This document shows, piece after piece, positions 25,220 through 52,800 of a stretch of DNA of 64,000 nt. The notes beneath the pieces were generated by a model. The model did no database searches and was not told where the DNA came from. It saw nothing but the letters and a program-made list of their open reading frames with translations. Numbering within the stretch: position 1 is the first letter of the stretch; every line of letters begins with the position of its first letter. A program made the translations under genes and the position numbers. The DNA comes from Diphasiastrum complanatum (taxonomy: Eukaryota; Streptophyta; Lycopodiopsida; Lycopodiales; Lycopodiaceae): contig CM055099.1 in assembly GCA_029204225.1 (NCBI GenBank), positions 58,353,982 through 58,417,981 on the forward strand, given 5' to 3'.

Positions 25220-25346
<127 letters not shown>

Positions 25347-25373
25347 CACCAACCAAACCCGCAGTCAATGAAT

Positions 25374-30479: not shown

Positions 30480-31634
30480 CAAACGAAACAAACAGGACAA
30501 CAATTACAAGAAAGGTCAGAGCGAAGATGGGTGGAAATGTACAACAAGATGGTCGCCCGTTTTGATTCTATCTTGCAATCGGCTGGTATTCCACAACAGC
30601 CAATTGATATTTAAACTACTAATCATGAATTGTGTACCACTGTTGATGTCTATGAAACAACGTTTCCTCTAGTCCAAGGGCAAAATTCCAAGCCAAAGGC
30701 AGATATTTTGAGCAAACAAGATCATGAATCTTCTGATAAAGCTATTGATTTCAAGGAAGAAAGCAGAATTCTTGATATTGATCTACCTTCCACAGAGGCA
30801 AATCAATATCAGCAAAGCACCAATGGACAAGTGAATGAAGACCAATTTGAAAATGCGGATCAAATATTGTTCGATAGTTGTAATGATCAGGTCAAAGGTC
30901 AAAATAAAGAGGTATATTATGAGCATAACGAATTTCTATAGTTGCAGCTAACAAGTCATGGAGTACAATCCGATTGTCGGGAATTACATTCTACTCCACA
31001 AATCAGTGGTTATGACCATATTATTGACAATGATCTATTTGGATTAATTTCTGAATATGAATCAACTGAGTGGTATAACACTGATACAAAATTCAAATAC
31101 CGATACAACAATGAGCTTTTTGATGTTGAAATTGGTATTAGCATTGCTTTCATGAAGTCAATAATAATAGATACATCCCAAGATCTGAAGCAAATTTATA
31201 TTCGGCTACCAACAAATGAGTCTAATGTGATATCAACGGAGGGATTTGGTGCAAAATCATCCAATATTCTTGAGTTAGAGAATGGCATCAATCCTATCAA
31301 CAAGAAAAACAGACTGACATGGAATTCAAGACTATCAAACTCCTTGTGTATAGATAACGAAAATGATCCCTTCACTACATGGGACTTGATGAATCCGAAT
31401 GTGGAATGTTGCATTTATTGGATGCATTGGAACTTCAAAATGAAATCAAGAGAAGTGGTGAAGACTACTGAATGTCCTATTGCTTGGATCTTGTTAACTC
31501 ATGCAGAACTAATGCAACTTGAGGCTTTCCTGTGTTTCATCAATCTCTTCCTCAGTGATCTTATCAAATCAATAGAATCAGTTGTAGATCAAAGGTTCTT
31601 TATGAAAAATTCTCGTTGCAACCTTGTTCTATGA
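30480..31634 (+). pseudogene. Unrecognised ORF series H (retroelement-like)
   Basis: Three in-line open blocks: about 30475-30614 (..RRWVEMYNKMVARFDSILQSAG), 30630-30941 (acidic, starting MCTTVDVYETTFPL) and 30942-31634 (230 codons, with SEYESTEWYNTDTKFKYRY and WDLMNPNVECCIYWMHWNF). They are separated by single stop codons in nearly continuous frames, suggesting one ancestral ORF. No zinc knuckle, protease or RT motif is visible. The low-complexity, acidic style is similar to 15679-17678, so both may be gag-region genes of non-autonomous elements. Function unknown. Confidence 0.35.
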
Positions 31635-31903
31635 CAATAAGCAGAGACAACAAAATCCAATGAACGGTAGATGGCTACTGACAAGAATAATACAAGAAAA
31701 GATGTTTCTTATTCAAGGTGGCCAAATCTTGTCAAATCTTGGTGTTTAGATGTAGATCTAAGATCACTTCACATGAGAATGTTCCTCAACCTGTTAAGAA
31801 CCTGAAAACACACTTGCATAATGGTTAACACCTTCCAGCAAATGCTCCAATCAAATTACATAAGGAGAGTTACTTACATGCTCAACAAAGTACACCAAAA
31901 TTT

Positions 31904-32167
31904 ATGCCAAAATTGATCACAATCTTTACAATATGCTCTTCACAATGGAGCTTACAATATGTTCACCCAAAAAAGGGGATCTTTCATCCAAATGGGAGCT
32001 TTGCTCAGCCTTTAGGAGAATTACAACTCACTCAAAAGAGCATTTGTCATCCACTTAAGGAGAAGTTTCATCCACTTAAGGAGAGTGTTCATCCAAGAAT
32101 GGAGATTGTCAACAATAGGATTGAAAAGAACATTGTTAGTATTGAATATGCACAAGCCTCACAATGA
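31904..32167 (+). other. Antisense small ORF in the copia F3 leader (87 aa)
   Basis: Open frame MPKLITIFTICSSQWSL.., antisense to the element. It is preserved in F1 (40991-41254) and F4 (63097-63372), with one residue changed. It has a short repeated phrase, CHPLKEKFHPLKESVHP. No domain recognised. It may simply reflect sequence identity of young copies rather than coding function. Confidence 0.35.
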
Positions 32168-32394
32168 CAAATGATTAGGTGTTATGATCTGATCCAAAAT
32201 AGTTTCTTTTCAGCCTCTGATCTTCAATAGACCTGAAATATGCTTTTGGTCCACAAGTTCAACTCACAAAACAAAGGTTAGTAAGATTTGATCAACAAAG
32301 CAATGCAAAATCATGCTAGAACTTGATCAAACATCCAAATATCACCAAAAATGGAATACTTACTGTAAATAGAAGCCAACCAGCTCTGATACCA

Positions 32395-33048
32395 TGTGAA
32401 AAATACAGATCCTAAGTGGATCTAAACTCCAAGATCATTGGCTTGAATGCTTGCACTCCAAACTACATAAGCTAGGAATTGGCAACACATTCTATGCTAC
32501 CTAGAATGCAAAGAACTTGATCAAAAAGCATTTATCACAAATGGAAACTTCCATAAACATCAAGTGCGGCCCAAAATAGCATTATACAGTCCATAATACA
32601 TCAGCCTACCACTTTTGGAAAGCACCTAAGATCATACACAATAGCTTGAAGACAATACACACAACAATGCTCTCAATGGAGGAAGAAACAATGACAATGA
32701 TCTATTGATCTCAATGAAGCATACAAAAGGTTTCTCCAACCTGTTTTCCACGACTTCCCTACTATTTATGGATGAGGAAGATGACTCTCTCTCCTCTCTC
32801 TAGAAGGTACTTGACCCTAGATATTCCCTATATAGGAAAAATAGCTAAAAATGGCTTATATGACCAAAATACATCAAAATGGTCTCATTTTGAAGGGTAT
32901 GAAGTTTGACACTTCATCATACTGAAAAAATACAGTAAATAAAAACATTTGGCCTGGTTCACACGTGTGAAACTCCAGAACCAAAACTATTTACAATTTT
33001 AGCCAATTTAGGTCTCAAACTAGCTAGGAAATGTTGACAATTTTCACA
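32395..33048 (-). repeat. LTR of copia F3
   Basis: 654 bp, TGTGAAAAATACAG..ATTTTCACA on the plus strand. It contains the perfect palindrome TTCACACGTGTGAA near 32959-32972 with a CACGTG core. Confidence 0.95.
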
Positions 33049-34948
33049 CATGTATCCTTCGGGTTGGATTATGTAGATATCTTCTTGTATGACTCCGTTC
33101 AGATAGGCTGTTTGTACATCAAGTTGATGTACTTTGAGGTCGGCAGCTGCAGCATAAGACAAGAGCATTTGGATCGACGAATGTTTGATGACTGGACTAA
33201 AAGTCTCACTGTGGTCGACATTCGGGATCTAGGTGAATCCTCGTGGTACTAGTCTAGCCTTCCTTCGATCAATTGCTCCGTTGGCATTATATTTGATCTT
33301 AAAGATCCATTTGCAATCAATAATATTGCAGCCAATAGGAGCTTCGACTAATGACCATGTCTGATTCTTGATCAGAGAGGAATACTCTCTGTCCATGGCT
33401 TCTCTCTAAAGATCAAAGTCTGGTTGGCTGAGTGCCTCTTCGACTATCGTCGGTTCCTACATTAAGAGACAAGTAAGAGTATACCTTGTGGGCTGTGTGC
33501 GCACTCGGCTTGATCTTTTGGGATGATTCAAATGATGAACCGCTCCTGGGACTTCTTGCTGGGTAGCAGCAACATATTCGTCTGATTCGTTGTCTCGAAG
33601 TGGGTCGACAATAGACACGTCTGAGCCAGAAGCTCGGACTGTCATGTCAATGGCAGGAGATGTAGGTTCTTCTTGAGCAATATCCTTGTCTTTGAGGTCG
33701 ACAAATTAATCCTCGATAAAGACTGTATCCTGGCTATACAATATTTGTTGGGTATCAGGATCGTACAGCTTGTAGGTGTTCTCAGATGAAGTATATCCGA
33801 TCAGGATGGTCTTGAGACCTTGGAAGTCCAATTTTTTCCTTGTGTCTTCTGAGATCTGTGCATAGGCAATGCACCCGAACACTCTTAGGTTCTTCAAAGA
33901 AGGCTTAGATCCTATCCACACCTCGTGGGGTGTCTTGTCTGAGAGGGCCTTGGTCGAACATCTGTTCTGGAGGTAAGCTGTAGTGGAGACAACTTCAACC
34001 CAGAATCTCTTGGACAACGTTGCATGCGATAGCATACGCTTAGCATATTTGACCAAAGTACAGTTCTTCCTCTCAACTAAGCCATTAGACTGAGGACTGT
34101 AAGGAGTGATGAATTGTTGCTCAATGCCTTGGCTTTGACAGTACTCCTTAAACTCGACAGAGATGTACTTTGTCGTGCTCTTGTTGGTGTACAAGGCGTG
34201 AGAATCAGCTGAGGAACTCGAGGCTTCATTCCTTCGCATGTCTTCCTGCAACAATATAGTAATGACTTTTGAAAGAGTCAATTCTGGATGAGTCGTGATG
34301 ATCATCACCCAGCTGTCGTAAGAACTTGGCTAGCTTGTAAGCAATTGCATCACTGCGTCTTGATCGTCTATGACAGATCCGACAGCGGCCCTTTGTCTTA
34401 GCAGGTTCTTGAATTGATTAATGTGATTCTGTAGAGAATCACCATTTGTCATTTTGAGGGAGTAGAATTTCTTCTTGAGATGTAGCTTAGAAGCTATATC
34501 TCGCACTTTGCATAGTGTGCTCAAGATGTCCCAGACTTCTTTTCATGTCTGAACCTCGAATACATGGCCGATCTAGGTATCCGTGATGTTGAGGATGATC
34601 AGTGTGAAAGCTTTTCCATCCTTCAGCTTCCATCTGGCGATTGTCTCGTCGACTGCTTCGGGTTTCTCTTCTACACCTGTAACAACGTCAAACAATTATT
34701 TTGCCATTAGTACAGTTTTCATCTTAAATTTTCATAGATGGTAATTGGCTCCATCAAGCTTGTCCATGATAGGATTGGCTTTCCCTTGGGAATCCATGTG
34801 GAAGAATTAGTCTAAGTGATAGGAGAAACTATCAGTGACTTAAGTATGAAAATATGATATTTATAGAACAAGAAAACAATTACTCTATCGGCTAGTAGAG
34901 TCTTGTACTATGGAAGCTTATCAAGTTATGAAAATAGCTCTGATACCA
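33049..34948 (-). pseudogene. Copia D, 5' half: gag fused to integrase, then RT start
   Basis: In minus-strand order: primer-binding site complement gctctgatacca (34937-34948); a gag frame at 34330-34524 (RDIASKLHLKKKFYSLKMTN); and a 200-codon frame at 33706-34308. The latter joins gag (MMIITTHPELTLSKVITIL) directly to the integrase core (GIEQQFITPYSPQSNGLVERKN) and its C-terminal GYTS block. A decayed RT start follows (AYLNGVIQEDIYIIQPEGYM), where F3 is inserted at 33048. The zinc knuckle, protease and integrase N-terminus are deleted, so it was defective before F inserted. The second half appears to be 54487-55990. Confidence 0.85.
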
Positions 34949-35365
34949 TGTTGGAGAGAGAGAGAGAGAGTGAGAGAACAAATGACGAACACGAATGAGA
35001 AATAAACTCGAACAAGATCCAAATGAGAAGCGAACTCGAACAGAAAATGTTCGTGTGCAGCGGAATGAATTATTTGACTCTCTCCGTAAGCATGACTATG
35101 CCTATCAGAATGAAGAGAACTTTAGTGATAGAAATCACAATCATTCTACATTACGTAGCCAAACATTTAATGGATGAAGTGCTAGATGAATAATTTGTCA
35201 CGAATTGCAAGACAAATTATCTATCGCAAATGATTCGCGAAGAGCTAGATTGTGCTAAACTGATAATTAGTCGCGAAAGGCAATACTAGAAGTTGATCGT
35301 CTATTATTAGAAAGAGCAACTAGAAAGATCAAACAAAATGAAGAACAAGCATAACAATATTAACA
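34949..35365 (-). repeat. 5' LTR of copia D
   Basis: Starts TGTTGGAGAGAG right after the primer-binding site. It matches the reverse complement of 55578-55990, including tcgcgaatgattcgcg-like inverted repeats (35225-35240 region). The outer edge (35365) is where similarity to the other copy ends and may not be the true terminus. Confidence 0.8.
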
Positions 35366-35705
35366 CAAATCTGAATGCAGAACAAAGAGCTGTATCAGAT
35401 TAAGTATATTATGTATACAAGTTAATAATGTGGCAGAGCACAATACAATAGCAGACAAAACCGCATGCCCTACGAAGCTTGCACCTAAATATGGCATGAG
35501 ATTAGTGAAAGAGTTCCTAGAACTAGACATGTGGGAACTAGCCCCACTATCTATCCACCAGACTTCTTCATTCTTAAAAGAAAAACATGAAAAAGTAGAC
35601 ATCATTAATGAATCCTCTCTTTCACTCTCTACACCCTCACACTCATTCTCATTAGTAAGGTTAGCTTGCCTAGATTGGTTCTTCTTCTTGAAACAGTATG
35701 ATGCA
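35366..35705 (-). pseudogene. Copia G: zinc-knuckle end and protease fragment
   Basis: The minus strand reads (HA)SYCFKKKNQSRQANLT from 35705, then EVWWIDSGASSHMSSSRNSF, the copia protease active site D-S-G-A-S. The coding resemblance fades beyond about 35470, toward the D LTR. It joins in frame to 42137-42863 once F1 is ignored. Confidence 0.85.
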
Positions 35706-36360
35706 TGTGAAAAATACAGATCCTAAGTGGATCTAAACTCCAAGATCATTGGCTTGAATGCTTGCACTCCAAACTACATAAGCTAGGAATTGGCAACACA
35801 TTCTATGCTACCTAGAATGCAAAGAACTTGATCAAAAAGCATTTATCACAAATGGAAACTTCCATAAACATCAAGTGCGGCCCAAAATAGCATTATACAA
35901 TCCATAATACATCAGCCTACCACTTTTGGAAAGCACCTAAGATCATACACAATAGCTTGAAGACAATACACACAACAATGCTCTCAATGGAGGAAGAAAC
36001 AATGACAATGATCTATTGATCTCAATGAAGCATACAAAAGGTTTCTCCAACCTGTTCTCCACGACTTCCCTACTATTTATGGATGAGGAAGATGACTCTC
36101 TCTCCTCTCTCTAGAAGGTACTTGACCCTAGATGTTCCCTATATAGGAAAAATAGCTAAAAATGGCTTATATGACCAAAATACATCAAAATGGTCTCATT
36201 TTGAAGGGTATGAAGTTTGACACTTCATCATACTGAAAAAATACAGTAAATAAAAACATTGTGGCCTGGTTCACACGTGCAAAACTCCAGAACCAAAACT
36301 ATTTACAATTTTAGCCAATTTAGGCCTCAAACTAGCTAGGAAATGTTGACAATTTTCACA
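35706..36360 (-). repeat. 3' LTR of copia F1
   Basis: 655 bp, TGTGAAAAATAC..ATTTTCACA. The last codons and stop of gag-pol fall just inside its inner edge (36356-36360). The CACGTG palindrome seen in F2, F3 and F4 is broken here (cacacgtgcaaaac), as it is in the partner LTR. Confidence 0.97.
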
Positions 36361-39300
36361 CTCCCTCTTCAACATTGGATGCTAGTTTCAACATAGTCTT
36401 TGAGCACATTCCAAGATTAGATCTATGCATTAAATATAGGTCCTTTCCCAATGGTTTGGTGAAGATATCAGCCACACACTCCTTTGAAGAGACATGTTGA
36501 AGCTCCACCTCTTTGGCAATGACTTGATCTCTCACAAAATGGTGAGCAATCTCAATGTGCTTGCTCCTTGCATGAAAAACAGGATTGCTTGCCAAGCTTT
36601 GGGCTGAAAGGTTATCACAAAGTATGATTGGAGTCTTCTCTGGTTCCAGCAAGTGAAGATCCAATAACATCCTTTTGATCCAAAGAATCTCCTTGGTGCA
36701 TGTTGTTAATGCCTTGTACTCGGCTTCGGTGGAAGATAGAGAGATAGTTGGTTGCTTCTTTGATAGCCATGAGACCACTCCATCTCCAAGATAGATTGCA
36801 AAGGCACTTGTTGACTTCCTATCCATTTGATCACCTGCAAAATCTGAATCTGAAAATCCACAAAGGTTAGGTGTAGTACCTCCATACAAGATGCCAAAAT
36901 CTCTAGATCCCGAGATGTATCTAAGTACTCTCTTTCCTAGCTTCCAATGAGCCTCACTAGGATCTTGCATAAATTGACTTAGTTTACCAACCACAAAGCT
37001 TAGATCAGGTCTTGTGATGGTTAACCATATAAGAGATCCTATTAGCTTTCTATAGAGAGTAATGTCCTTGAAGGATCTTTCATTACTTCTTGTAGTTAGC
37101 TTTACATTTGATTCCATAGGAGTAGAAACAACTTTACAATCTTCCATATGAAACCTTTTTAGAATAGAGTTAACATACTTTTCTTGACATATGAATGTAG
37201 ATTTAGAAGTTCTAATAATCTCTATTCCTAAGATATAATGAAGTTTACCAAGATCTTGAATTTCAAACTCTCTTTTGAGTGCCATCTTGATTTCATCTAT
37301 ATCTAGATTGTTACCACCACTTAAGATAATGTCATCAACATAGATCAAAAGTAAAGTGATATCATTTTCATTCAATCTAAAGTAGAGAGAATGATCATAC
37401 TCACTCATAACAAAGTTTTGAGAAAGTAAGAAGGAATTGAGCTTAGCATACCAACTCCTTGGTGCTTGCTTTAGCCCATACAAACTCTTTTGGAGATAGC
37501 ACACATGATTAGGCTCATCATGTGAAACATAGCCCTCGGGTTGCTCCATGTAAATATCTTCTTCAAGATCACCATTCAAGAAGGCATTAGTAACATCCAT
37601 TTGCCACATATCCCAATCATAAAGAGTTGCAAGAGAGATTAGGATTCGAATAGTTACCATCTTTGCCACGGGTGCAAAGGTCTCATCATAGTCAATACCA
37701 TATTCTTGAGCATACCCCTTTGCCACCAACCTTGCCTTGTACTTGTTGATTGATCCATCTTGATTTGTCTTGATCTTGAAGATCCACTTACAACCAATTG
37801 CCTTCTTGTCCTTTGGAAGCTTTACCAACCTCCATGTGTTGCTTTTGATGAGTGCTTGATGCTCATGATCCATGGTTTGGATCCATTCCTTCTTTTGAAT
37901 TGCTTCACCTACACAAGTTGGTTCATCAAAAGAGGTAAGAAAAGCAAAGTTAGAGTTGTCCACCACTTGCTTTCCTTTTTCATCATAGGTTAGCCTTGAT
38001 GGCTTAGCCCTTTGCCTTTGAGTCTTCCTTGAAGTTTGCTTTGGAGTGGCATCTCCATCTTCATCCAAGACATCTTGCACATCATGATGATTAGTAGGCA
38101 CATCAACATCAACATCAACAACATTGGAAACATTCTCTTCATGAAAGATGACATCCCTACTTATGACAACTTTCTTTGTAGAAGGAATGTACACTTTGTA
38201 AGCCTTGCTTACTTCACTATAGCCAACAAACACACCCTTCTTTGATGAAGGATCTTCTTTAGTTCTATCATCAAGTGTGATATTGACAAAACATGTACAT
38301 CCAAAGATCCTACAATGCTTGACACTCGGCCTTCTACCATAAAGAACCTCATGAGGAGTTTTACCATCCAAGGAAGCACTTGTCCATCTATTACATAGAT
38401 AGTTAGCACATGCTAAAGCTTCCCCCCAAAAAGACTTAGCAAGATTAGCATGTAGTCTCATTGCCTTGGCACATTCACAAAGGGTTCTATTCTTCCTCTC
38501 GGCCACTCCATTCTGTTGTGGAGTCCTAGGACTAGACATCTCCCTCTTAATCCCATGTGCTATACAAAAGTCTTTGAACCTATTTGAGGTGTATTCCCCT
38601 CCATTATCAGATCTTAAGCATTTGATCTTTGTATTGAATTGGTTTTCCATTTCATTCTTGAACTTGACAAATGCAGCAAACACTTCATCCTTACTTTTAA
38701 GAAGATAGATCCAAGTATACCTACTAAAGTCATCAATGAAAGTTGCATACATCTTTGCCCCACCATTGCTAGTTGTACTAGAAGAATGAATATCAGAATG
38801 CACAAGTTGAAAAGCTTCTTTAGATCTAGAAGTAGATCTAGAATAAGCAAGTCTATGAGATTTGGACAAGGCACAATGTTCACAAACACTATTGTTTGCA
38901 ACAAGACTTTTAGGGAGACCAAGAACAAGCTCTTTCTTTGCCATTACCTCCAAAGATTTGAAGTTGGGATGGCCCAACCTCTTGTGCCAAACTTCTTGGT
39001 TTGTCAATTGCTCCCTAGCCATACATCCTTCATGATTAGAGATCACACATGCATCAAGCTTGAAAAGTTTACCATGCCTCCTACCTTGAGCAATCAAGGA
39101 TCCACATTTACTTATCAAACATGCATCTCCAATGAACTCCACATCAAGTCCTTTGTCAATCATTTGACTTACACTAAGCAAATTCTTAGTGATTGAAGGA
39201 ATGTACAAAACATTTTCAAGATTTGCTTTCCTATTTGTTGAAAGGGAAATAGGAATAGTGCCTATGCCTTTGATGTCACATTGACCATCATTTGCAGTGT

Positions 39301-40309
39301 AGATGATGTTACCTTCTCCCTCATAAGACAATAAGGATGTAAAGTATTCCTTATGTCTTGTCATGTGAGATGAGGCTCCACTATCAATCCACCAAGGATC
39401 ATTATCATCTATGTTGGCTAACAAACTTGAAGTCATAACAAGTGATTCACATGTGTTATGTTCTTCCTCATCTATTGTAAGATTTCCTTGCCTCTCTCCT
39501 TGCTCTCTTTTCTTCTTATAACATTCATTTGCAAAATGACCTTTTATCCCACAATAAAAGCACTTGAACTTTGACTTATTGTTCTTAGTAGAAGAGGAAG
39601 AGGAAGAGTGATCATCATGATCAAAGTTACCACCTTTGGACCATTTCCCTTTGCCTTTACCTTTGCCCTTGAATTTGCCTTTTGTGAAGAAAGCCTCTTC
39701 ACCTCCACCTTGCAAGGATGCACCATCAAGCTTTGATTGCAACCTATGTTCTTCAGCCAATAAGATTTCTTGCAAGTCAACCACACTTGGCAAGACTCTT
39801 TGAATGGCAAAACTTTGCACAAGGTTAGCATGTTCATTTAGCAAACCATTCAACATAACTTGGACTATTTCACCATCTTTTATGTTCTCATCAATGCATG
39901 CTAAATCATCACTTAGGGACTTAACTCTCAAGATAAATGCATGAGCACTTTCACCCTCTCTTTGCCTACTAGAAAATATTTGTCTCCTTAGGGTCAATAC
40001 CCTAGATGTGGACTTTGATTCAAAGAGCTTCTTTAAGGCATTCCATGCCTCACTTGCACTTTGACACTTTCCAACTTCCTTGAGAAGTTCATTTGTAACA
40101 TTCATTTTAATGATATGAAGAGCCCTTTTGGCCTTCTTATCAAACCTTTGTTGCTCTTGAAGTGTGAGAGGTCTCTCTTCAATTTCTACAACTATGTCCA
40201 TGAGTTCATTCAACTCAAGTAAGGACTCCATCCTCACTTTCCAAGTAGAGTAGTTTGATGAACTCAACCTTTCACTAGACTCTAGCATGATCCCACCATT
40301 GGAAGCCAT
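36356..40309 (-). CDS. Copia F1 gag-pol polyprotein (1317 aa)
   Basis: A complete Ty1/copia polyprotein without stops. Residues about 1-200 form a UBN2-type gag, followed by a Lys/Gly-rich linker. A CCHC knuckle CFYCGIKGHFANEC is at 250-263. The retropepsin WWIDSGASSHM has its active Asp at 309. The integrase has zinc-binding H442..H and CEHC, and catalytic D506, D568 and E604 (DDX35E), with PQQNGVAERKNRTL. The RT starts near 820 and has YVDD at 990-993. RNase H acidic residues are near D1154, E1195 and D1232. The C-terminal block is CVADIFTKPLGKDLY. Order PR-IN-RT-RH is diagnostic of copia. Relative to F2 I count five substitutions. The start is the first ATG, and MASNGGIMLESSERLSSSNY is a usual copia N-terminus. 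Confidence 0.97.
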   Translation of the reverse strand: MASNGGIMLESSERLSSSNYSTWKVRMESLLELNELMDIVVEIEERPLTLQEQQRFDKKAKRALHIIKMNVTNELLKEVGKCQSASEAWNALKKLFESKSTSRVLTLRRQIFSSRQREGESAHAFILRVKSLSDDLACIDENIKDGEIVQVMLNGLLNEHANLVQSFAIQRVLPSVVDLQEILLAEEHRLQSKLDGASLQGGGEEAFFTKGKFKGKGKGKGKWSKGGNFDHDDHSSSSSSTKNNKSKFKCFYCGIKGHFANECYKKKREQGERQGNLTIDEEEHNTCESLVMTSSLLANIDDNDPWWIDSGASSHMTRHKEYFTSLLSYEGEGNIIYTANDGQCDIKGIGTIPISLSTNRKANLENVLYIPSITKNLLSVSQMIDKGLDVEFIGDACLISKCGSLIAQGRRHGKLFKLDACVISNHEGCMAREQLTNQEVWHKRLGHPNFKSLEVMAKKELVLGLPKSLVANNSVCEHCALSKSHRLAYSRSTSRSKEAFQLVHSDIHSSSTTSNGGAKMYATFIDDFSRYTWIYLLKSKDEVFAAFVKFKNEMENQFNTKIKCLRSDNGGEYTSNRFKDFCIAHGIKREMSSPRTPQQNGVAERKNRTLCECAKAMRLHANLAKSFWGEALACANYLCNRWTSASLDGKTPHEVLYGRRPSVKHCRIFGCTCFVNITLDDRTKEDPSSKKGVFVGYSEVSKAYKVYIPSTKKVVISRDVIFHEENVSNVVDVDVDVPTNHHDVQDVLDEDGDATPKQTSRKTQRQRAKPSRLTYDEKGKQVVDNSNFAFLTSFDEPTCVGEAIQKKEWIQTMDHEHQALIKSNTWRLVKLPKDKKAIGCKWIFKIKTNQDGSINKYKARLVAKGYAQEYGIDYDETFAPVAKMVTIRILISLATLYDWDMWQMDVTNAFLNGDLEEDIYMEQPEGYVSHDEPNHVCYLQKSLYGLKQAPRSWYAKLNSFLLSQNFVMSEYDHSLYFRLNENDITLLLIYVDDIILSGGNNLDIDEIKMALKREFEIQDLGKLHYILGIEIIRTSKSTFICQEKYVNSILKRFHMEDCKVVSTPMESNVKLTTRSNERSFKDITLYRKLIGSLIWLTITRPDLSFVVGKLSQFMQDPSEAHWKLGKRVLRYISGSRDFGILYGGTTPNLCGFSDSDFAGDQMDRKSTSAFAIYLGDGVVSWLSKKQPTISLSSTEAEYKALTTCTKEILWIKRMLLDLHLLEPEKTPIILCDNLSAQSLASNPVFHARSKHIEIAHHFVRDQVIAKEVELQHVSSKECVADIFTKPLGKDLYLMHRSNLGMCSKTMLKLASNVEEGV

Positions 40310-41469
40310 GATTCTAATGTTTCTTCAACTTTTAGGTTTTGTCCTAAAGCACTTAGCACTCACTTTTCTCTCAACAAATGATAGATAAAGAGATCTATGA
40401 AGATTTAGGACCCTAAAACACTTCTATCTTGAACCTAGATGGTTTCCAAGCATAGAAAGGAAGATTGAAACACATGCAACACTTTCCACACACTAAGAAT
40501 GGATTACAAAATCAAACCAACCTGAACACACTCTTGCTTAAGCTCTCAAACTTTCCAGCAAGTGACCAAATCAAGTTATGGTGTGAAGAGTTACTTGCAT
40601 TCTTAGAAAATACCCAAAACTAGGATGCCAAGATTACCTAGTAATGAACAAACTTGATCAACATATGATCAACACACTAAGATATTGATTAAACCTGTAA
40701 AACCACATGTAAACCACACTTCTAAAAGTTTATAAACTCCAGCAAGTGATAAATACAAGATTTAGAGGTGAATGAATGAGCACACTTAGTGAATCACAAG
40801 ACTAGCTTCACTATCTTGTCAAATCTTGGTGTTTAGATGTAGATCTAAGATCACTTCACATGAGAATGTTCCTCAACCTGTTAAGAACCTGAAAACACAC
40901 TTGCATAATGGTTAACACCTTCCAGCAAATGCTCCAATCAAATTACATAAGGAGAGTTACTTACATGCTCAACAAAGTACACCAAAAATTATGCCAAAAT
41001 TGATGACAATCTTTACAATATGCTCGTCACAATGGAGCTTACAATATGTTCACCCAAAAAAGGGGATCTTTCATCCAAATGGGAGCTTTGCTCAGCCTTT
41101 AGGAGAATTACAACTCACTCAAAAGAGCATTTGTCATCCACTTAAGGAGAAGTTTCATCCACTTAAGGAGAGTGTTCATCCAAGAATGGAGATTGTCAAC
41201 AATAGGATTGAAAAGAACATTGTTAGTATTGAATATGCACAAGCCTCACAATGACAAATGATTAGATGTTATGATCTGATCCAAAATAGTTTATTTTCAG
41301 CCTCTGATCTTCAATAGACCTGAAATATGCTTTTGATCCACAAGTTCAACTCACAAAACAAAGGTTAGTAATATTTGATCAACAAAGCAATGCAAAATCA
41401 TGCTAGAACTTGATCAAACATCCAAATATCACCAAAAATGGAATACTTACTGTAAATAGAAGCCAACCA
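40310..41469 (-). other. Copia F1 leader (5' untranslated)
   Basis: 1.16 kb without a sense ORF. The part around 41060-41190 has short imperfect repeats (ttctccttaagtggatgaa in the sense direction), which underlie the antisense ORF at 40991-41254. The phrase 'ccagcaa(g/a)tg' occurs repeatedly. Confidence 0.75.
40991..41254 (+). other. Antisense small ORF in the copia F1 leader (87 aa)
   Basis: MPKLMTIFTICSSQWSL..EYAQASQ is antisense to the element. It matches the F3 and F4 versions almost exactly. No domain recognised; coding status unproven. Confidence 0.35.
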
Positions 41470-41481
41470 GCTCTGATACCA

Positions 41482-42136
41482 TGTGAAAAATACAGATCCT
41501 AAGTGGATCTAAACTCCAAGATCATTGGCTTGAATGCTTGCACTCCAAACTACATAAGCTAGGAATTGGCAACACATTCTATGCTACCTAGAATGCAAAG
41601 AACTTGATCAAAAAGCATTTATCACAAATGGAAACTTCCATAAACATCAAGTGCGGCCCAAAATAGCATTATACAGTCCATAATACATCAGCCTACCACT
41701 TTTGGAAAGCACCTAAGATCATACACAATAGCTTGAAGACAATACACACAACAATGCTCTCAATGGAGGAAGAAACAATGACAATGATCTATTGATCTCA
41801 ATGAAGCATACAAAAGGTTTCTCCAACCTGTTCTCCACGACTTCCCTACTATTTATGGATGAGGAAGATGACTCTCTCTCCTCTCTCTAGAAGGTACTTG
41901 ACCCTAGATATTCCCTATATAGGAAAAATAGCTAAAAATGGCTTATATGACCAAAATACATCAAAATGGTCTCATTTTGAAGGGTATGAAGTTTGACACT
42001 TCATCATACTGAAAAAATACAGTAAATAAAAACATTGTGGCCTGGTTCACACGTGCAAAACTCCAGAACCAAAACTATTTACAATTTTAGCCAATTTAGG
42101 CCTCAAACTAGCTAGGAAATGTTGACAATTTTCACA
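41482..42136 (-). repeat. 5' LTR of copia F1
   Basis: 655 bp, TGTGAAAAATAC..ATTTTCACA, next to the primer-binding site at 41470-41481, and followed by the ATGCA target duplication. TATA candidates (minus strand) lie around 41850-41930. Confidence 0.97.
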
Positions 42137-43532
42137 ATGCATAGTGTCCTTTCTTGCCACAGACAAAACACTTGATCTTTGATAGCTTCTTCTTGCCACT
42201 AGATGTTGCACCTTGTGAGGATTGATCCTTACCACCTTATTTGGCTTTGTCCTTCTTGAAGTGTTGTTGTCCTTTGCCATTGCCTCTTGACTTGTCTCTG
42301 ATGAAGAGTGCTTTGTCATCTCCACCATCTTTCAATGAAAGTCTGTTGATCCTCAGCATGTTGTTTTCTTGCCTGCTTTCTTCAGCAATGAGAACACCTT
42401 GTAGTGTCTCCAAGGATGGAAGATCCTCTCTGATAGCATAAGTTTGCACAATATTGTCATACTCATCTCTAAGTCCATTTAGGACTACTTGAACAAGTTT
42501 AGTGATCTTAAAAGCATCACTAATACTAGCTAACTCTTGATGAAGATCCTTAACTCTCATGACATATGATGAAGCACTCTCATCTACTCTTTGATAACTT
42601 AGAAATATTTGGTTTCTAAGTGTAAGCAATCTAGAAGTATTTTTGATTTCATAGATTGTTTTTAGAGTATCCCAAGCTTCCTTGGCAGTGGTGCATGTAC
42701 TGAACTCTCTTAACACTTCATTGGTAACATTCATTTTTATAAAATAAAGGGCAATTCTGGTTCTTTTGTGGAATGCTGTAGCTTCATTAGGTGCAACAGG
42801 TTCTTCTTCAGCGCCACTCACAATATCCATTACATCTTGTAGAATCAACAAATGTTGATCCACCCTATGAAATCTAGCAACAGATGTGAGAGCAAATTCT
42901 CAATACTAAAAATCAATCTATCTTGAATTTGGATCTTGCTTCAGTCACAAAAGAAGAAGCACATGCAAGCAAGAATTCTATCTCTCCCACAAGTTTCAAT
43001 GTACTGAAAAACTCTCTAGGAACTTACTTTCAACTCAAACACAGTAATATGTGTGAAATGAAAAGTCTAAGACCTCAAAACACTCACTTCTATCCAATCC
43101 TACTTGATTGACAATGAAAATTGATGAAAAAGACAGATGTGTGCTCACTTTGGCATATCCCACGACTTGATTACCCTCTCAAACTCTCCGATTGCCTAAA
43201 AATCTTCTAGAAACAAATCAAATTGATTTAGAAACAAGAGCAACACATTTTACTCTCGAATACCTATCCAACAAGCTATAGAACATCAAATTTGGATCAT
43301 TCCTTGAGAAGTAGCACTCATTAATGAGGGCTGAATTCACACGTGTGACCCCTCTGTCCATACAGAGCTCCGCTAGATCAAATCAACCTTGATTTGATCC
43401 ACTTATGATCCATAGATTGCTTGTTTCTCAGCGAGTTTGAATCCTTCTCAAAATCCGAGTTCCTGCAAGCAAAAACACTGATGATCTGATGTATACACCC
43501 TCACTTCTTCAAAGCATGAAGCTCTGATACCA
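42137..43532 (-). pseudogene. Copia G: gag and leader
   Basis: The minus-strand gag frame at 42237-42863 (VMDIVSGAEEEPVAPNE.., HIKMNVTNEVLREF-type block, ..LTLRNQIFLSYQR) is a UBN2-type copia gag. It reaches a stop at 42237. Just beyond come KIKCFVCGKKGHYA, the first half of a CCHC knuckle, and then the F1 insertion; the last Cys of the knuckle (SYC) lies at 35695-35705. The leader spans 42864-43520, and primer-binding site complement gctctgatacca is at 43521-43532. Little of pol survives. Confidence 0.88.
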
Positions 43533-44264
43533 TGTGAGGTCTTTAGCACGTGTGAACTTCACCACACACCTATAGGATCTTACTGAGGTGTTGTGATTGC
43601 ACAAGATTGATCAAAGAACAGTATGCTTGAAAAATCTAAGGCAAGAGCACAATGGCATACATCTGATGAAAAAATCTAACTCTTCACTATGAGAAATGAA
43701 TGTCAGAAATAATTCTAAGTGTTCAGTATGGGAAAAAGAGGCTGCTCTCGAGTAGAGAGAGAAAATCATACATAGAAAACTTGGGTAGAGAGAGAATGAG
43801 TCCAAAACAACAAAATCTCAATACTCACAAATTGGCAAAATATGCCCAACTTTTCCTACATGAGAGAGACTCGAATTCCTACAACGGAGTTGCATGGAAA
43901 GTCCACTTAACTGAACTAATTCACCTACCAGAGATCCACATGTGTAACTGCATGCATGTATGGTGCATGTACTGCATGTCAACTCATAAAATTGCCTAGA
44001 CATGTGTAGATCACAGAAACTAATTTGCATGTTGCATGCACTAATTGCATGTGGCTTGCATGCATACAGTAAAACTTTGCATGCTATCAAAACATCTGCA
44101 TGTCATTACAATTGAACCTATCTAGCTCAAATCCGAGCTACACTAGAAGGATATGTGCTCAATTCACACTCCTTATATGTACAACATGAAATCTAGTGGA
44201 AACTATCATGGTAATGACCCCAAACTCGAGATAGGAAGATAATATTTTAATAATCTTCACAACA
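43533..44264 (-). repeat. 5' LTR of copia G
   Basis: 732 bp, plus strand TGTGAGGTC..CTTCACAACA, adjoining the primer-binding site at 43521-43532. Its outer edge cuts into the RNase H codons of copia D2, so G inserted there. The U3 part carries a dense cluster of TGCATG motifs (43949-44102). Confidence 0.85.
43949..44102. promoter_or_regulatory. Cluster of ten TGCATG (RY-type) motifs in the G LTR
   Basis: Ten copies of TGCATG (some overlapping, as in tgcatgcatg) occur within 154 bp of the U3 side of the LTR. CATGCA/TGCATG is the core RY element bound by plant B3-domain factors of the ABI3/FUS3/LEC2 class. Role here is inference. Confidence 0.6.
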
Positions 44265-44724
44265 AGTTGGGCAAGAGATGTAGACACTCATAAATCCCTT
44301 ATGGATTTACATTCTTCCTCAACAATGGTCCTATTTCATGGAACATTCGCAAGCACTCATTGATAGCTCTATCTTCCACTGAATTAGAGTATATCGCAGC
44401 CTCTCAAGTTACAAAGGAAGCAATTTGGTTGAGGAACCTACTATCAGATATTAGTCTGAATCAATATGCTTTGACGATTTTTTTTTTTGATAATCAAAGT
44501 GCCATTGCCTTATCATCCAAACCTAGGTTTCATTCCAAGAGTAAGCACATTGAAATCAAGTATCACTACATTAAAAGCAAAGTTCTTGACAAAGAGGTTA
44601 ACTTGCAGTACTGTCGAACAACAAGATATAATAGCCAAAGCATTAAGCTTGGTCACACATAGAAAGTTCTATGCAAAAATAAATTTGAAGGTCAAGGCAT
44701 TCATGGATTCAGATTAAGGGGGAG
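44265..44724 (+). pseudogene. Copia D2: RNase H end and polypurine tract
   Basis: The plus strand encodes YGFTFFLNNGPISW, LIALSSTELEYIAASQ, FFDNQSAIALSSKP and SKHIEIKYHYIKSKVLDKEV, the copia RNase H C-terminal half. One frameshift follows, then the terminal TDIIAKAL-type block. The polypurine tract aagggggag is at 44716-44724. The left part was cut by the insertion of G. Confidence 0.85.
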
Positions 44725-44880
44725 TGTTGGATTATTCTCCTACTAATCAACTAATCGGTTTTTAATCTTCATCCAACTGATTATCCAGAATGGAAATGAG
44801 CACAAAGGAATTGTGGATCAAAGTCGCGTGCTCTGAGCTATCTCTGAGTAACTATAACTCTGTCTGAATTAAGCACTTCA
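44725..44880 (+). repeat. Copia D2 3' LTR, 5' fragment
   Basis: Begins TGTTGGATTATTCTCC directly after the polypurine tract. It is interrupted after 156 bp by the LTR of copia E, and the rest is not found in the window. Confidence 0.8.
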
Positions 44881-45217
44881 TGTCAAGGATCTTATTGGCA
44901 GTATAGTTAGCTAATTTGCAAGCAATCTAACATCAATCAGATAAACAAGAGAGATCACACACCAACCCAAGAGAACACTTCTGAACTGTATTTTACAAAA
45001 GAGACTGAAAGGTCTATATACACAGTCTAATTTCTGTGGGGTACCGCTACATGGTAGTTTGGTCCTCGTTACGAGACGCATGTCCCAACTTACACTACGT
45101 ATACCATCAAACTGGCACTCATGCATACTATCACAAAAGCAGTAAAATGCTCGAAATCACTGCTAAACACAGAAAGTCACGAACTGTGAGAGAAACTCGA
45201 GCTTACTTATTCTAACA
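44881..45217 (-). repeat. 3' LTR of copia E
   Basis: 337 bp, TGTCAAGGATC..TTATTCTAACA. A close relative is at 21654-21982. Confidence 0.93.
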
Positions 45218-45229
45218 CTCTCCCTTAAG

Positions 45230-46740
45230 CCCTAGTTTATCTTCTTCACAAAGAGCTTTTCTCTAAAAAATCTCAAACTTATTAGTACTTAAAGGTTTAG
45301 TGAATATATCAACTAACTGATTCTCTGTTTTACAATGCACTACGTCTATTTCATTAGATAATAACTTCTCTCTAATAAAATGATACTTAATTTCTATATG
45401 CTTCGTGCGTGCATGAAATATAGGACTTTTAGCTAGCTGTATAGCACTCTGACTGTCACATCTGATCACAGTAGGCTTATTCTACAGAACTCTAATGTCT
45501 TCTAACATTCTTCTTAGCCAAACTGCTTCCTGTGTAGCTGAACATAGTGCTTTGTATTCTGCTTCTATAGTAGAAAGAGCAACTGTGTCTTGTTTCTTAC
45601 TTGACCAAGAGAATACACCATTACCAACATGAAATACATAACCTGTGGTAGATCTCATGTCATCAATACAGCCTGCCCAAACTGAATCAACAAAGCCCTG
45701 TAAAACTGGTAAAGTATGTTGCCTCTCTTACAACAATCCATGGGTTAACATGCCCTTCACATAATGAAGAATTCTCTTCGCTGCTTTCCAATTAATCTCT
45801 CTAGGAGTAGCCATGAATTGACTCACAATGCTTACAGCATAACTTATGTCAGGATGAGTAGTTATGAGATAAATCAGCGAACCAATTTAATTGATGAAAT
45901 AACGGTGGTATCAACTAGTGCACTCTCATCTTGGTTAGATAGTTGCTTAGCAACCTCCACAGGTGTGGATACTGGCTTGTTGTCGCACATTTTGAAACGC
46001 TTCAAAATCTCATTCACGTACTTTGTTTGTGTTAGTGCGATGCTATTGCAACCTTGCCGTACTTCCACTCCCAAATAGTAGTGCATCAAGCCAAGATCAG
46101 TCATATCAAAGCTAGAAGATAAGTCTTTCTTGATTGCACCAATCAAATTATCATCATTTTCTGTGTTGTCGTCTACGTACAGCACAATCAGTGTGATACT
46201 AGAGTCACAAGCAAAGTAGTAAAGATTAAAATCTGAAGGAGTGCGTGTCAAACCTCTAGATAGGAGATGCTCATCAAAGTGGCTATACCAAGCATGTGGT
46301 GCTTGTTTCAATCCGTACAAGGCTTTCTTCAGCTTGCACACTTTGCCTTCCATGCCATGTATCACAAAGCCACTGGGTTGCTCCATGTACACTTCTTCTT
46401 CAAGCTTACCATTTAGGAATGCAGACTTTACATCCATATGATGTAGATTCCATCCAAATAGTGCCGCCAAAGCAATCATGATGCAAAGTGTATTCCACTT
46501 GGCCACATGAGCGAAGGTCTTTTCATAGTCAATGCTCTTACTTTGCGCATAGCCCTTTACTACAAGCCTTGCTTTGTGTTTTGCAATAGTTCCATCGGCA
46601 TTGTACTTTGTCTTGTATACCCACTTGTTGCCAATGGGTCTTTTGCCCTTTGGAAGATCCACTATCTCCCACGTGTCATGGTGTTTGATGGAATCAATCT
46701 CCTCCTGCATTGCTTTTTGCCATATCTCCTAATTTTTGGC
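45230..46740 (-). pseudogene. Copia E RT and RNase H (broken)
   Basis: The RT frame at 45874-46710 has KRPIGNKWVYKTKYNADG, HKARLVVKGYAQ, the DVKSAFLNGKLEEEVYMEQP block, LKKALYGLKQAPHAWY and catalytic YVDD. RNase H is in a separate frame at 45263-45469, with CDSQSAIQLAKSPIFHARTKHIE and VDIFTKPL. Stops at several places between 45470 and 45873 break it. Confidence 0.92.
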
Positions 46741-46839
46741 CTCCTCAAAGCAAGAGGGTTCAGTAGATGAAATAATATCACTCATAAGTGCAAGATTTAC
46801 CTGAAACCTGTCAGGTTCCTTCCTCTCCCTTGTGGAATG

Positions 46840-47963
46840 TCACAACTCTTTTTCGTTACTAGACTCGGCAATTTCCCCTTCCTTGTCACTCATGAGTTTA
46901 GTGTACCATATAGGTAACTTACGTTGATATTCACTACGAGGTGAATAGGAATCCCATGGTGCATCTTGCTCCTTCCTTTTATCACCTGCTACCTCAATCT
47001 TTTCCGATCCAGTATATTTGTTTCTTACTCTCCATCTCGTCTCTATGGTGGGAGGAGTATCATGTCCCTCATCAACATCATGATGATCTTCTTGTGTTGG
47101 TAGAACTACTATATCCTCTTTAAGAAGAGTACATAGCTCATCATTATCCTTTTCTTCATCCCCAAATCTATGGATCTCATCAAATAAAACATCACGGCTT
47201 ATGTGCACACGTAGCCCCTCTGGATCATAACATCTATATCCCTTGGTTTGTTCATCATAACCTGTAAAAATGCACTTCAAGGCATTTGCCTGCATTTTGG
47301 CTCTCTTGCTCTTAGGTATGTGAACATACACTCGACATCCAAATACTCGCAACCCATCCATCTTAGGCTTCTTACCAGTGAATGCCTCCTCGGGTGTGCT
47401 GTAGGGGCTTCTATTTTGATAGCTTCACCCCATAAAGAATCAGTAACTCCCATATGTGTCATCATTGCCCTAGCTACTTCGACAATGGTATGATTTTTTC
47501 TTTCAGCTACCCCATTTTGTTGAGGTGTATCAACATGTGCAAACTCCTGTTTAATGCCATGCTCCTTGCAAAAATCAATAAAATCTGTGGAACGATACTC
47601 ACCACCACGATCTGCCCTGAGTACCTTGATCTTAGCACCTGACTGATTTTCCACCAATGCTTTGAAGCTTTTGAAGCATCCAAATGTGTCAGACTTTTGC
47701 TTAGCGGTGTAGATCCAGGTCTTTCATGAGTAATCATCAATGAAGGTTAGCAAATAAAATGCTTTACCAATAGACATTACCCTCATTGGCCCACATAGGT
47801 CATAGTGTATTAACTCAAGCACTCGTTTTGCCCTTGTTGCTCCTTCTTTGTTGAACTTCTTCCTGTGTAACTTGCCTAGCATGCACTCCTTGCAAATGGA
47901 CTCTTCCTTGTCATCCAAACTAGGTAAACCTATTACCATCTTGAGCTTACGAAGTAACCTCAA
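46840..47963 (-). pseudogene. Copia E integrase (broken)
   Basis: Three frames: 47724-47963 (CKECMLGKLHRKKF zinc half, LELIHYDLCGPM with the first Asp); 47277-47657 (VLRADRGGEYRS second Asp, PQQNGVAERKNHTIVE Glu); and 46840-47361 (VFGCRVYVHIPKSKRAK, the GYDEQTKGYRCYDP block). Frameshifts lie between them. Confidence 0.92.
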
Positions 47964-47991
47964 GCTCTTGAAGTTCTAATGCCCCATACGT

Positions 47992-48430
47992 CTATGCCAT
48001 AAAATCACTTTGTGATATAGATGTCGATGCTAACATGTTGCACTTCATAACAACAGCATTTAACTTGTACAAACTACAAGTTTTATCCCTAAAGCCATCA
48101 GCAATCACCTTGAAACCCCATTTCACATCCTTGATTTGGCATTTCTTGTCGTTGAACTCCACCTTCAACTTATGATCTGTCATTGTATTAATAGATAAAA
48201 GACTCTTCTGAAGACCAGGAACATACAACACATTTCCAATTACCTTCACATGTCCATCAAAAGATTGAATAGGCACTCCACCAACTCCATGAATTTGGCA
48301 CTCGTCACCATTCGCCTACGCAACTCTGTCTCCTTCATTAGTAAGTTCCAGGTTTTTAAGCCATGATTTGTTGCCAGTCATGTGTCTCGTTGCCCGTGAG
48401 TCCACGTACCAATGTGTATGATCAATGGAA
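47992..48430 (-). pseudogene. Copia E protease (broken)
   Basis: A frame at 47992-48276 has IGNVLYVPGLQKSLLSI. Upstream, WYVDSRATRHMTGNK is the active-site region, with D-S-R in place of D-S-G. Stops are present between the two parts. Confidence 0.85.
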
Positions 48431-48518
48431 TGTTGCGATGCTCATGTTGTCGCAAATGTCATGCCTTGATCTTCATTATCTCTATCATTCTCTTCTTCAA
48501 CAAAATTGGTCAACTGCT

Positions 48519-49307
48519 TCACTTTGCCCCTCTTAATATCCGCCTTCTTCTTGCGACAATGTCTTGCCCAATGTCCAGGCTTTTGGCAATACCTTTCTTC
48601 TTCTTGCCTGATGTGGATCCTTGATTGTCATCCTCCACATTCAACTTCTTGGGTTGCTTCTTGTATTTATGCTTCCCTTTGGCTAGCATTGCTTGGTCTT
48701 CCGATGTAAGAAGTCGAGTTTCTACCACTTCACGCCTTTGTTCCTCCTGTAGGATGATGCCATGAAGGTTTTCAAATGTTGGTAGCCTCTCCCTCGAAGC
48801 AATGCCACTTGCAAACATTTGGAAATTTTTAGATAGGCCATTTATAGTTGTGTGAACCAGCTCAACATCTCTTATTGGCTCTCCAATAGCTATCAACTGG
48901 TGTCGTAACTCCTTTATTCGTGTGAAATAGGACCCTATGCCCTCATTCTCCTCCATGTGAACACTTATGAGTTTGGTCCTCAAAAACATCATTCAAGAGG
49001 GGTTTTCCATTTGAAACTGTGTTTTGAGTGCATCCTAAGCACCTCTTGCTAATACAGCTTCACTAATGTGGGCAATGACATGATCCTTCACTGACAAGTT
49101 TATCAAGGATAAGGCCTTCTGCGCCCTTTTGTCAAATGCATGAATATCGGATGGAGTTGTAGTTGGCCGTTGTTCCACCCCAGTGACAATGTTCCACAGC
49201 TCCTTTTCCATAAAAATACTTTTCATTTTGAATTTCCAAATGCTATAATTCGATACCTCGTTCAATCTACTAGCTTTTCCAAGCATGGATTCTCCCAATC
49301 CTGCCAT
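48519..49307 (-). pseudogene. Copia E gag (broken)
   Basis: Frame 49035-49307 starts MAGLGESMLGKASRLNEVSNYSIW-type sequence. Frame 48519-48992 has IGSYFTRIKELRHQL and LPTFENLHGIILQEEQR. The zinc knuckle CQKPGHWARHC appears only after a frameshift near 48580. UBN2-type gag, non-functional. Confidence 0.88.
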
Positions 49308-49882
49308 TTCACCAAAAATTGCTCCTATAGCGCTTTAAGAGGCCCAATGACAAGCTTATATAGCAATTTAGACTTCTAAACGTCAACTTTAAGGTCTGAC
49401 CAAAAAAGTTTCAGGTTCATTCACCTCTAAATCTTGTATTTATCACTTACTGGAGTTTATAAACTTTTAGAAGTGTGGTTTACATGTGGTTTTACAGGTT
49501 GAATCAATATCTTAGTGTGTTGATCATATGTTGATCAAGTTTGTTCATTACTAGGTAATCTTGGCATCCTAGTTTTGGGTATTTTCTAAGAATGCAAGTA
49601 ACTCTTCACACCATAACTTGATTTGGTCACTTGCTGGAAAGTTTGAGAGCTTAAGCAAGAGTGTGTTCAGGTTGGTTTGATTTTGTAATCCATTCTTAGT
49701 GTGTGCAAAGTGTTGCATGTGTTTCAATCTTCCTTTCTATGCTTGGAAACCATCTAGGTTCAAGATAGAAGTGTTTTAGGGTCCTAAATCTTCATAGATC
49801 TCTTTATCTATCATTTGTTGAGAGAAAAGTGAGTGCTAAGTGCTTTAGGACAAAACCTAAAAGTTGAAGAAACATTAGAATC

Positions 49883-52800
49883 ATGGCTTCCAATGGTGGG
49901 ATCATGCTAGAGTCTAGTGAAAGGTTGAGTTCATCAAACTACTCTACTTGGAAAGTGAGGATGGAGTCCTTACTTGAGTTGAATGAACTCATGGACATAG
50001 TTGCAGAAATTGAAGAGAGACCTCTCACACTTCGAGAGCAACAAAGGTTTGATAAGAAGGCCAAAAGGGATCTTCATATCATTAAAATGAATGTTACAAA
50101 TGAACTTCTCAAGGAAGTTGGAAAGTGTCAAAGTGCAAGTGAGGCATGGAATGCCTTAAAGAAGCTCTTTGAATCAAAGTCCACATCTAGGGTATTGACC
50201 CTAAGGAGACAAATATTTTCTAGTAGGCAAAGAGAGGGTGAAAGTGCTCATGCATTTATCTTGAGAGTTAAGTCCCTAAGTGATGATTTGGCATGCATTG
50301 ATGAGAACATAAAAGATGGTGAAATAGTCCAAGTTATGTTGAATGGTTTGCTAAATGAACATGCTAACCTTGTGCAAAGTTTTGCCATTCAAAGAGTCTT
50401 GCCAAGTGTGGTTGACTTGCAAGAAATCTTATTGGCTGAAGAACATAGGTTGCAATCAAAGCTTGATGGTGCATCCTTGCAAGGTGGAGGTGAAGAGGCT
50501 TTCTTCACAAAAGGCAAATTCAAGGGCAAAGGTAAAGGCAAAGGGAAATGGTCCAAAGGTGGTAACTTTGATCATGATGATCACTCTTCCTCTTCCTCTT
50601 CTACTAAGAACAATAAGTCAAAGTTCAAGTGCTTTTATTGTGGGATAAAAGGTCATTTTGCAAATGAATGTTATAAGAAGAAAAGAGAGCAAGGAGAGAG
50701 GCAAGGAAATCTTACAATAGATGAGGAAGAACATAACACATGTGAATCACTTGTTATGACTTCAAGTTTGTTAGCCAACATAGATGATAATGATCCTTGG
50801 TGGATTGATAGTGGAGCCTCATCTCACATGACAAGACATAAGGAATACTTTACATCCTTATTGTCTTATGAGGGAGAAGGTAACATCATCTACACTGCAA
50901 ATGATGGTCAATGTGACATCAAAGGCATAGGCACTATTCCTATTTCCCTTTCAACAAATAGGAAAGCAAATCTTGAAAATGTTTTGTACATTCCTTCAAT
51001 CACTAAGAATTTGCTTAGTGTAAGTCAAATGATTGACAAAGGACTTGATGTGGAGTTCATTGGAGATGCATGTTTGATAAGTAAATGTGGATCCTTGATT
51101 GCTCAAGGTAGGAGGCATGGTAAACTTTTCAAGCTTGATGCATGTGTGATCTCTAATCATGAAGGATGTATGGCTAGGGAGCAATTGACAAACCAAGAAG
51201 TTTGGCACAAGAGGTTGGGCCATCCCAACTTCAAATCTTTGGAGGTAATGGCAAAGAAAGAGCTTGTTCTTGGTCTCCCTAAAAGTCTTGTTGCAAACAA
51301 TAGTGTTTGTGAACATTGTGCCTTGTCCAAATCTCATAGACTTGCTTATTCTAGATCTACTTCTAGATCTAAAGAAGCTTTTCAACTTGTGCATTCTGAT
51401 ATTCATTCTTCTAGTACAACTAGCAATGGTGGGGCAAAGATGTATGCAACTTTCATTGATGACTTTAGTAGGTATACTTGGATCTATCTTCTTAAAAGTA
51501 AGGATGAAGTGTTTGCTGCATTTGTCAAGTTCAAGAATGAAATGGAAAACCAATTCAATACAAAGATCAAATGCTTAAGATCTGATAATGGAGGGGAATA
51601 CACCTCAAATAGGTTCAAAGACTTTTGTATAGCACATGGGATTAAGAGGGAGATGTCTAGTCCTAGGACTCCACAACAGAATGGAGTGGCCGAGAGGAAG
51701 AATAGAACCCTTTGTGAATGTGCCAAGGCAATGAGACTACATGCTAATCTTGCTAAGTCTTTTTTGGGGGAAGCTTTAGCATGTGCTAACTATCTATGTA
51801 ATAGATGGACAAGTGCTTCCTTGGATGGTAAAACTCCTCATGAGGTTCTTTATGGTAGAAGGCCGAGTGTCAAGCATTGTAGGATCTTTGGATGTACATG
51901 TTTTGTCAATATCACACTTGATGATAGAACTAAAGAAGATCCTTCATCAAAGAAGGGTGTGTTTGTTGGCTATAGTGAAGTAAGCAAGGCTTACAAAGTG
52001 TACATTCCTTCTACAAAGAAAGTTGTCATAAGTAGGGATGTCATCTTTCATGAAGAGAATGTTTCCAATGTTGTTGATGTTGATGTTGATGTGCCTACTA
52101 ATCATCATGATGTGCAAGATGTCTTGGATGAAGATGGAGATGCCACTCCAAAGCAAACTTCAAGGAAGACTCAAAGGCAAAGGGCTAAGCCATCAAGGCT
52201 AACCTATGATGAAAAAGGAAAGCAAGTGGTGGACAACTCTAACTTTGCTTTTCTTACCTCTTTTGATGAACCAACTTGTGTAGGTGAAGCAATTCAAAAG
52301 AAGGAATGGATCCAAGCCATGGATCATGAACATCAAGCACTCATCAAAAGCAACACATGGAGGTTGGTAAAGCTTCCAAAGGACAAGAAGGCAATTGGTT
52401 GTAAGTGGATCTTCAAGATCAAGACAAATCAAGATGGATCAATCAACAAGTACAAGGCAAGGTTGGTGGCAAAGGGGTATGCTCAAGAATATGGTATTGA
52501 CTATGATGAGACCTTTGCACCCGTGGCAAAGATGGTAACTATTCGAATCCTAATCTCTCTTGCAACTCTTTATGATTGGGATATGTGGCAAATGGATGTT
52601 ACTAATGCCTTCTTGAATGGTGATCTTGAAGAAGATATTTACATGGAGCAACCCGAGGGCTATGTTTCACATGATGAGCCTAATCATGTGTGCTATCTCC
52701 AAAAGAGTTTGTATGGGCTAAAGCAAGCACCAAGGAGTTGGTATGCTAAGCTCAATTCCTTCTTACTTTCTCAAAACTTTGTTATGAGTGAGTATGATCA

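Follow-up and report, generated by a model that had tools for sequence, protein, structure and literature searches.

The window analysed here, a stretch of 64,000 nucleotides from the lycopod Diphasiastrum complanatum (contig CM055099.1 of assembly GCA_029204225.1, positions 58,353,982 to 58,417,981 of the forward strand), contains an apparently rearranged, transposon-rich stretch of about 28 kb, which is recorded by three transposons that have been cut in two. Three breakpoints are found, at 21095/21098, 31725/31726 and 49415/49416 (window coordinates, as throughout), and these delimit a left piece P (up to 21095), two middle segments, Q and R, and a right piece S (from 49416). Read from the comparisons of the split elements, the present order P-Q-R-S is the ancestral order P-Q'-R'-S with both middle pieces turned around in place. 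Repeat G links P with the right end of Q, when other G copies are used as a guide; element E, inserted in element M, links the right end of R with the left end of Q; and element F, inserted in element D, links the left end of R with S. The order P-Q'-R'-S is taken to be ancestral, because it is the only one that fits all three links. A preliminary description of this DNA had proposed a single 17.7-kb inversion of 31726-49415, which split F and its host D. R is indeed inverted relative to S, but Q is inverted too, the two segments share the middle breakpoint, and there are three breaks.

The link between R and S is provided by the two parts of F, referred to as F3 and F2, and by a further copy within R, F1. 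When the window is compared with itself, F3 (31726-33048) matches F1 at 40813-42136 with 99.1% identity, and F2 (49416-54486) matches F1 from 40776 to 35706, gap-free, with 99.7% identity, such that only 36 bp of F1 (40777-40812) are missing between them; this is in agreement with the coordinates and the gap given in the preliminary description. The outer flanks are also as described there, being ACATG|TGTGAAAA at 33053-33049 on the minus strand for F3, and TTTTTCACA|ACATG, with the duplication at 54487-54491, for F2. A perfect 5-bp target duplication is present in 13/13 other F copies checked (those listed directly after the window in a search that scored 40 of 695 candidates), so that matching flanks are the rule for an unrecombined F insertion. 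With its paired long terminal repeats (LTRs) and 5-bp target duplication, F has the make-up of an LTR retrotransposon. F and D are called copia after the preliminary description, the finds of the Pfam scan being RVT_2 and a copia-type gag in E and a copia-type gag in the element surrounding F1.

The 5' LTR of F3 and the 3' LTR of F2 differ by no substitution and one gap over 655 bp, and they are closer to each other than to the LTRs of F1 (4-6 differing sites) or to those of seven genome copies, chosen as the best matches to F3 (1-2 differing sites in 7/7). F3 and F2 also have an LTR variant in common. It is absent from all seven of these copies, yet it is a minority form rather than a unique one, with 244 exact 34-base matches (three of them at the present locus) versus 5278 with the other base (about 4%); it was dropped as a private mark and is weak evidence for one insertion. 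Unequal recombination between F copies was rejected as the origin of F3 and F2, given the variant shared by the two D halves and the matching target duplication. At the level of sequence, F3 and F2 are confirmed as complementary halves of one copia-like insertion within one D copy. This insertion is young, because its LTRs show no substitution over 655 bp, and the rearrangement is younger still, because it cuts F, both as proposed previously. At a plant substitution rate near 1.3e-8 per site per year, the upper bound on the age would be roughly 0.2 million years.

The host element gives the same connection. Both D halves in the window carry CAA, whereas 18/18 other D copies shown read CAG, and in all 18 the reverse transcriptase (RT) motif is single and without F (20 loci of 40 scored, from 6959 candidates; the remaining two are the window itself and a nearly identical copy that lies 23.7 kb further right, in the tandem duplication described below). 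Both flanks of F are D, and they are the halves of one D copy, as the preliminary description states; what it had overlooked is that these halves overlap by 21 bp (IIQPEGY / MIQPEGY; 33049-33078 and 54487-54510). The 3' LTR of D is shortened. The overlap is an in-frame tandem repeat of 21 bp in the RT region, which is missing in 18/18 other D copies shown, and it indicates that D already carried this repeat when F inserted where the two units meet. The joined empty D site has no match in the assembly with up to three mismatches, which does not prove its absence, and the D RT half beside F3 has no match in the 80 kb compared. This D copy also lacks about 0.7-0.8 kb at 55568-55569, which is present in other D copies before the 3' LTR.

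The left side of the rearranged stretch does not heal when R is turned back. Repeat G stops mid-element at 31725, and beyond this point 12/12 other G copies fetched run into the sequence of the window from 21095 to 20976 on the minus strand, with identities of 84-96% (40 scored of 609 candidates; two pairs among the 12 are nearly alike). In a longer G copy (L069), the part in Q corresponds to positions 188-1490 (gapped) and the part in P to positions 1517-1782, such that 26 bp are missing; a weaker second match of this copy (70%) lies at 20798-20651. It appears very unlikely that two complementary G halves would meet within 26 bp by chance. The frame at 30942-31634 in G has no Pfam family match at the threshold used.

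The third link is that of E and M. The leader of E is cut mid-element at 49415, where other E copies extend further upstream, and the LTR and leader of these copies correspond to the minus strand of the window between 21983 and about 21165, with a weak match in the far leader. When 21096-21650 is used for the search (40 scored of 102 candidates; three copies fetched), copies match up to a point about 2-10 bases short of the junction, with 87-91% identity for the best. In L098 and L099, two of the three copies fetched, a single leader contains both parts, 21228 to 21098 (21102 in L099) and then the sequence from 49415 onward, separated by 608 and 625 bp, respectively; in the third, L097, only the first leader part matches. 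The 3' flank of E (44783-44878) is element M, and in 8/8 other M copies fetched (40 scored of 2928 candidates; some of the eight nearly alike) M continues from 44878 into 21990 or 22011 onward, with 74-85% identity. These M copies, which run across both flanks, imply that E interrupted M once and that the E halves in Q and R are one insertion. Separate E insertions in Q and R, initially preferred as the target duplications do not match, were dropped because the M copies bridge the flanks. The case for joining the E halves is made by M and by the split leader, since the LTRs and the target duplication of E do not pair cleanly. The features are listed in Table 1.

Table 1. Segments, junctions and split elements of the rearranged stretch (window coordinates).
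Feature	Position	Length	Strand	Description	Basis
Segment Q	21096-31725	10,630 bp		Read as reversed in place	Split G, E and M; junction sequences
Segment R	31726-49415	17,690 bp		Read as reversed in place; the inversion of the preliminary description	F, D, M; junctions
Junction a	21096-21097	2 bp		Filler TA between G (..21095) and E leader (21098..)
Junction b	31726-31727	2 bp		Microhomology AT common to G and F
Junction c	49415-49416			Blunt join, E leader to F body
G, far part	20830-21095		minus	End of piece P; L069 1517-1782	12/12 G copies
G, internal part	30457-31727		plus	L069 188-1490	G copy comparison
E, 5' part	21098-21983		minus	5' LTR 21652-21983, then primer site and leader	E copies
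E, body and 3' LTR	44879-49415		minus	3' LTR 44879-45218; leader cut at 49415	E copies
M, left half	44783-44878		plus	Interrupted by E	M copies
M, right half	21984-22171		plus	Interrupted by E	8/8 M copies
F3	31726-33048		minus	F 5' LTR (32393-33048) and leader	Self-comparison, flanks, LTRs
F2	49416-54486		plus	Rest of the F insertion; 3' LTR 53832-54486	Self-comparison, LTRs
F1	35704-42136		minus	F copy with both LTRs, within R; target duplication TGCAT	Self-comparison, flanks
D, 5' part	33049-35480		minus	LTR at least 34948-35374; D similarity to 35480; ACATG 33053-33049	Comparisons
D, 3' part	54487-55990		plus	ACATG 54487-54491; shortened 3' LTR from 55569	D comparisons

The DNA lost at the breaks amounts to 26 bp in G, about 610 bp in E and 36 bp in F. 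The joins show filler, a 2-bp microhomology and a blunt end, alongside the loss in E, and in the former respects they look like products of end joining. There is no homology at the joins themselves; the regions of junctions b and c have in common a 119-bp inverted stretch of 72% identity inside F, at least 74 bp from the join, and a 19-bp match, and junction a has no match to b or c at the threshold used.

It is probable that the double flip was made by one three-break repair event, or by excision of a circle and its reinsertion at its own site. The locus P-Q'-R'-S would have been broken in G (between P and Q'), in the E leader (between Q' and R') and in the F leader (between R' and S), and the fragments of 10.6 and 17.7 kb would have been rejoined by non-homologous end joining, both reversed and still between P and S. 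The three breaks may have been mis-joined directly within one nucleus. It may also be that Q'R' was excised as a circle, fused at 31725/31726, which would then have been opened in E and reinserted at its own excision site. These routes yield an identical product, of which only the final order is visible, and they are equally good explanations; direct rejoining is as good as the circle route because the block has returned to its original flanks, with larger losses than in the published circle-type cases discussed below. That there was a single event, and that it took place in the organism and not in the assembler, is what we infer from these joins and links.

Several observations weigh against this interpretation. 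The target duplication of E is degenerate (CTTCA versus CGTCG), and its LTRs, at 87.2% identity, resemble those of some other copies no less than they resemble one another (up to 87.8% over the whole length for the 5' LTR and up to 90.3% for the 3' LTR). A loss of about 610 bp, as seen in E, is large for simple end joining, and two nearby F copies (71783-78213 and 89950-96380) are without matching duplications, which may mark a locus that is hard to assemble. The comparisons cover the best-scoring G, E, M, F and D copies, a small part of each family, and all evidence comes from one assembly and from the present haplotype. An uninverted or empty copy was not found among the scored matches in the assembly, and this lack of a match does not prove its absence.

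The most serious alternative, with a low but appreciable probability, is an assembly artefact, in which Q and R would be separate pieces that were placed in the right order, each misoriented, and joined without N. Two in-place flips with small gaps have the look of two misoriented contigs, F is abundant and very uniform (the 34-base LTR word and its variant quoted above), and the two F copies with unmatched flanks lie nearby. There is, however, no N in 144 kb (the window and 80 kb of neighbouring sequence), and the filler, the microhomology and the losses of 26-36 bp resemble end joining; moreover, neither end of Q, nor the right end of R, has a second near-identical copy among the scored matches. 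From the end of the contig list, three contigs were sampled (C4900, C5100 and C5176); they measure 29,306, 26,424 and 25,010 bp and are all longer than Q and R. The ordering by length and the floor near 25 kb are inferred from these lengths, and such a floor may apply to unplaced pieces only. Two successive inversions, of Q' and then R' or the reverse, would give the same final order by reusing the middle breakpoint; this is a rather improbable course, as the same base pair would have been broken twice, and no remnant of G is present at 49415, nor one of E at 31725. The simple inversion of 31726-49415 is in agreement with the F and D evidence, and re-inverting this segment restores F and D as had been predicted, but it leaves G and E cut mid-element and joins G to the E leader, unlike the fetched G and E copies, their partners lying at 21095-21098. 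A simple two-break inversion would share with the present locus the inversion of R relative to S, and it differs in that a second adjoining segment is inverted here and a third breakpoint is needed. It would require that the pairing of G and that of E/M are both coincidences, and it was rejected as very improbable. Even less credible are flips driven by homology between inverted F copies. F1 (minus) and F2 (plus) are inverted repeats of 99.7% identity, and the 119-bp inverted stretch is common to b and c, but the joins are G-F, E-F and E-G, never F-F; the breakpoints do not lie within paired homologous repeats, as this stretch is off the join and what is left is the 19-bp match for b and c, and none for a.

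To the right of the breakpoints, S contains a tandem duplication, in which 54487-71782 (with a further element, F4, inside) is repeated at 78214-89949 (window-based coordinates, partly beyond the window). The two copies differ by 7 mismatches in 7,748 aligned positions over 54487-62233 and by 3 in 3,988 past F4, and with a divergence of about 0.1% the duplication appears young. F4 is a related element of another subfamily, at 62234 to 67789 (leaving the window at 64000), with LTRs identical over 649 bp and a target duplication TGTTT. The second duplication copy has an exact empty site for the insertion at 62234, so that F4 is probably younger than the duplication. A hybrid F (71783-78213), flanked by ATCTA and ACATG, forms the boundary of the duplication, which possibly arose by unequal recombination between F copies, or by an assembly misjoin. 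The next F (89950-96380) is flanked by ATCTA / CCATG, without a target duplication, and its two LTRs differ by 8 substitutions; because its 3' LTR is F1-like, this copy is probably a recombinant. Two further features are a near-perfect palindrome of about 1 kb at 13785-14804 (self-complementary, 86-97% in parts) and, inside Q, 60 perfect GA units (25223-25342) and a run of 28 G (29041-29068).

Within the hybrid F, the change from one parent to the other falls in the interval 1149-1446 (element positions), which includes the break in F at 1323-1360. This overlap is suggestive; it was noticed post hoc, and by interval length it would occur by coincidence in about 5% of cases. It is conceivable, though unlikely, that one catastrophe produced both the double flip and the neighbouring duplication. 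The F leader would then have broken before replication, one copy of the right end would have been end-joined to E, and the other would have recombined with a downstream F, giving the hybrid F and the duplicated D block, while the 28-kb block left as a circle and returned reversed to its own site. F2 and the hybrid F have 5 differing sites in the 4,416-bp body. The 5' LTR of the hybrid differs from that of the next F, its presumed donor, at 3 of 655 sites, which exceeds the level expected from the duplication and argues against a common origin.

The order found here, in which both neighbouring blocks are reversed and the outer ends are fused, is that of a B-A/D-C flip in place. In a study of human segmental duplications (PMC7450558), the change from A-B/C-D to B-A/D-C is explained by a circle that forms through fusion of the ends A and D and is then opened at B/C. 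The locus shares with those cases the block-order change, non-homologous breakpoints in interspersed repeats, microhomologies of 1-2 bp and short indels. They differ in being copies at a distant site, with the donor kept, whereas here an uncopied block lies at its own original site, and the losses of 26, 36 and about 610 bp are larger than the indels of 1-13 bp described there. Chromoanagenesis in Populus, as summarized in PMC8423247, is similar in that clustered breaks are rejoined in an altered arrangement, but it involves chromosome-scale shattering with copy-number change; the present case has three breaks in 28 kb, and each searched end of Q and R has one near-identical place among the scored matches, which does not fit chromothripsis or chromoanagenesis. 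Beside this stands the tandem duplication in S. Among the titles and abstract openings that a literature search returned, no comparable in-place double flip was found, which does not prove that none has been described.

If real, the double flip would give a base-resolution view of how the repair of three breaks reshuffles transposon-rich DNA in place, from one genome and without an outgroup. Such double flips resemble a plain inversion or an assembly error unless each split transposon is traced to its other half, and in large genomes rich in repeats, this tracing would offer a way to test, without a reference, for hidden rearrangements as well as for misoriented contigs.

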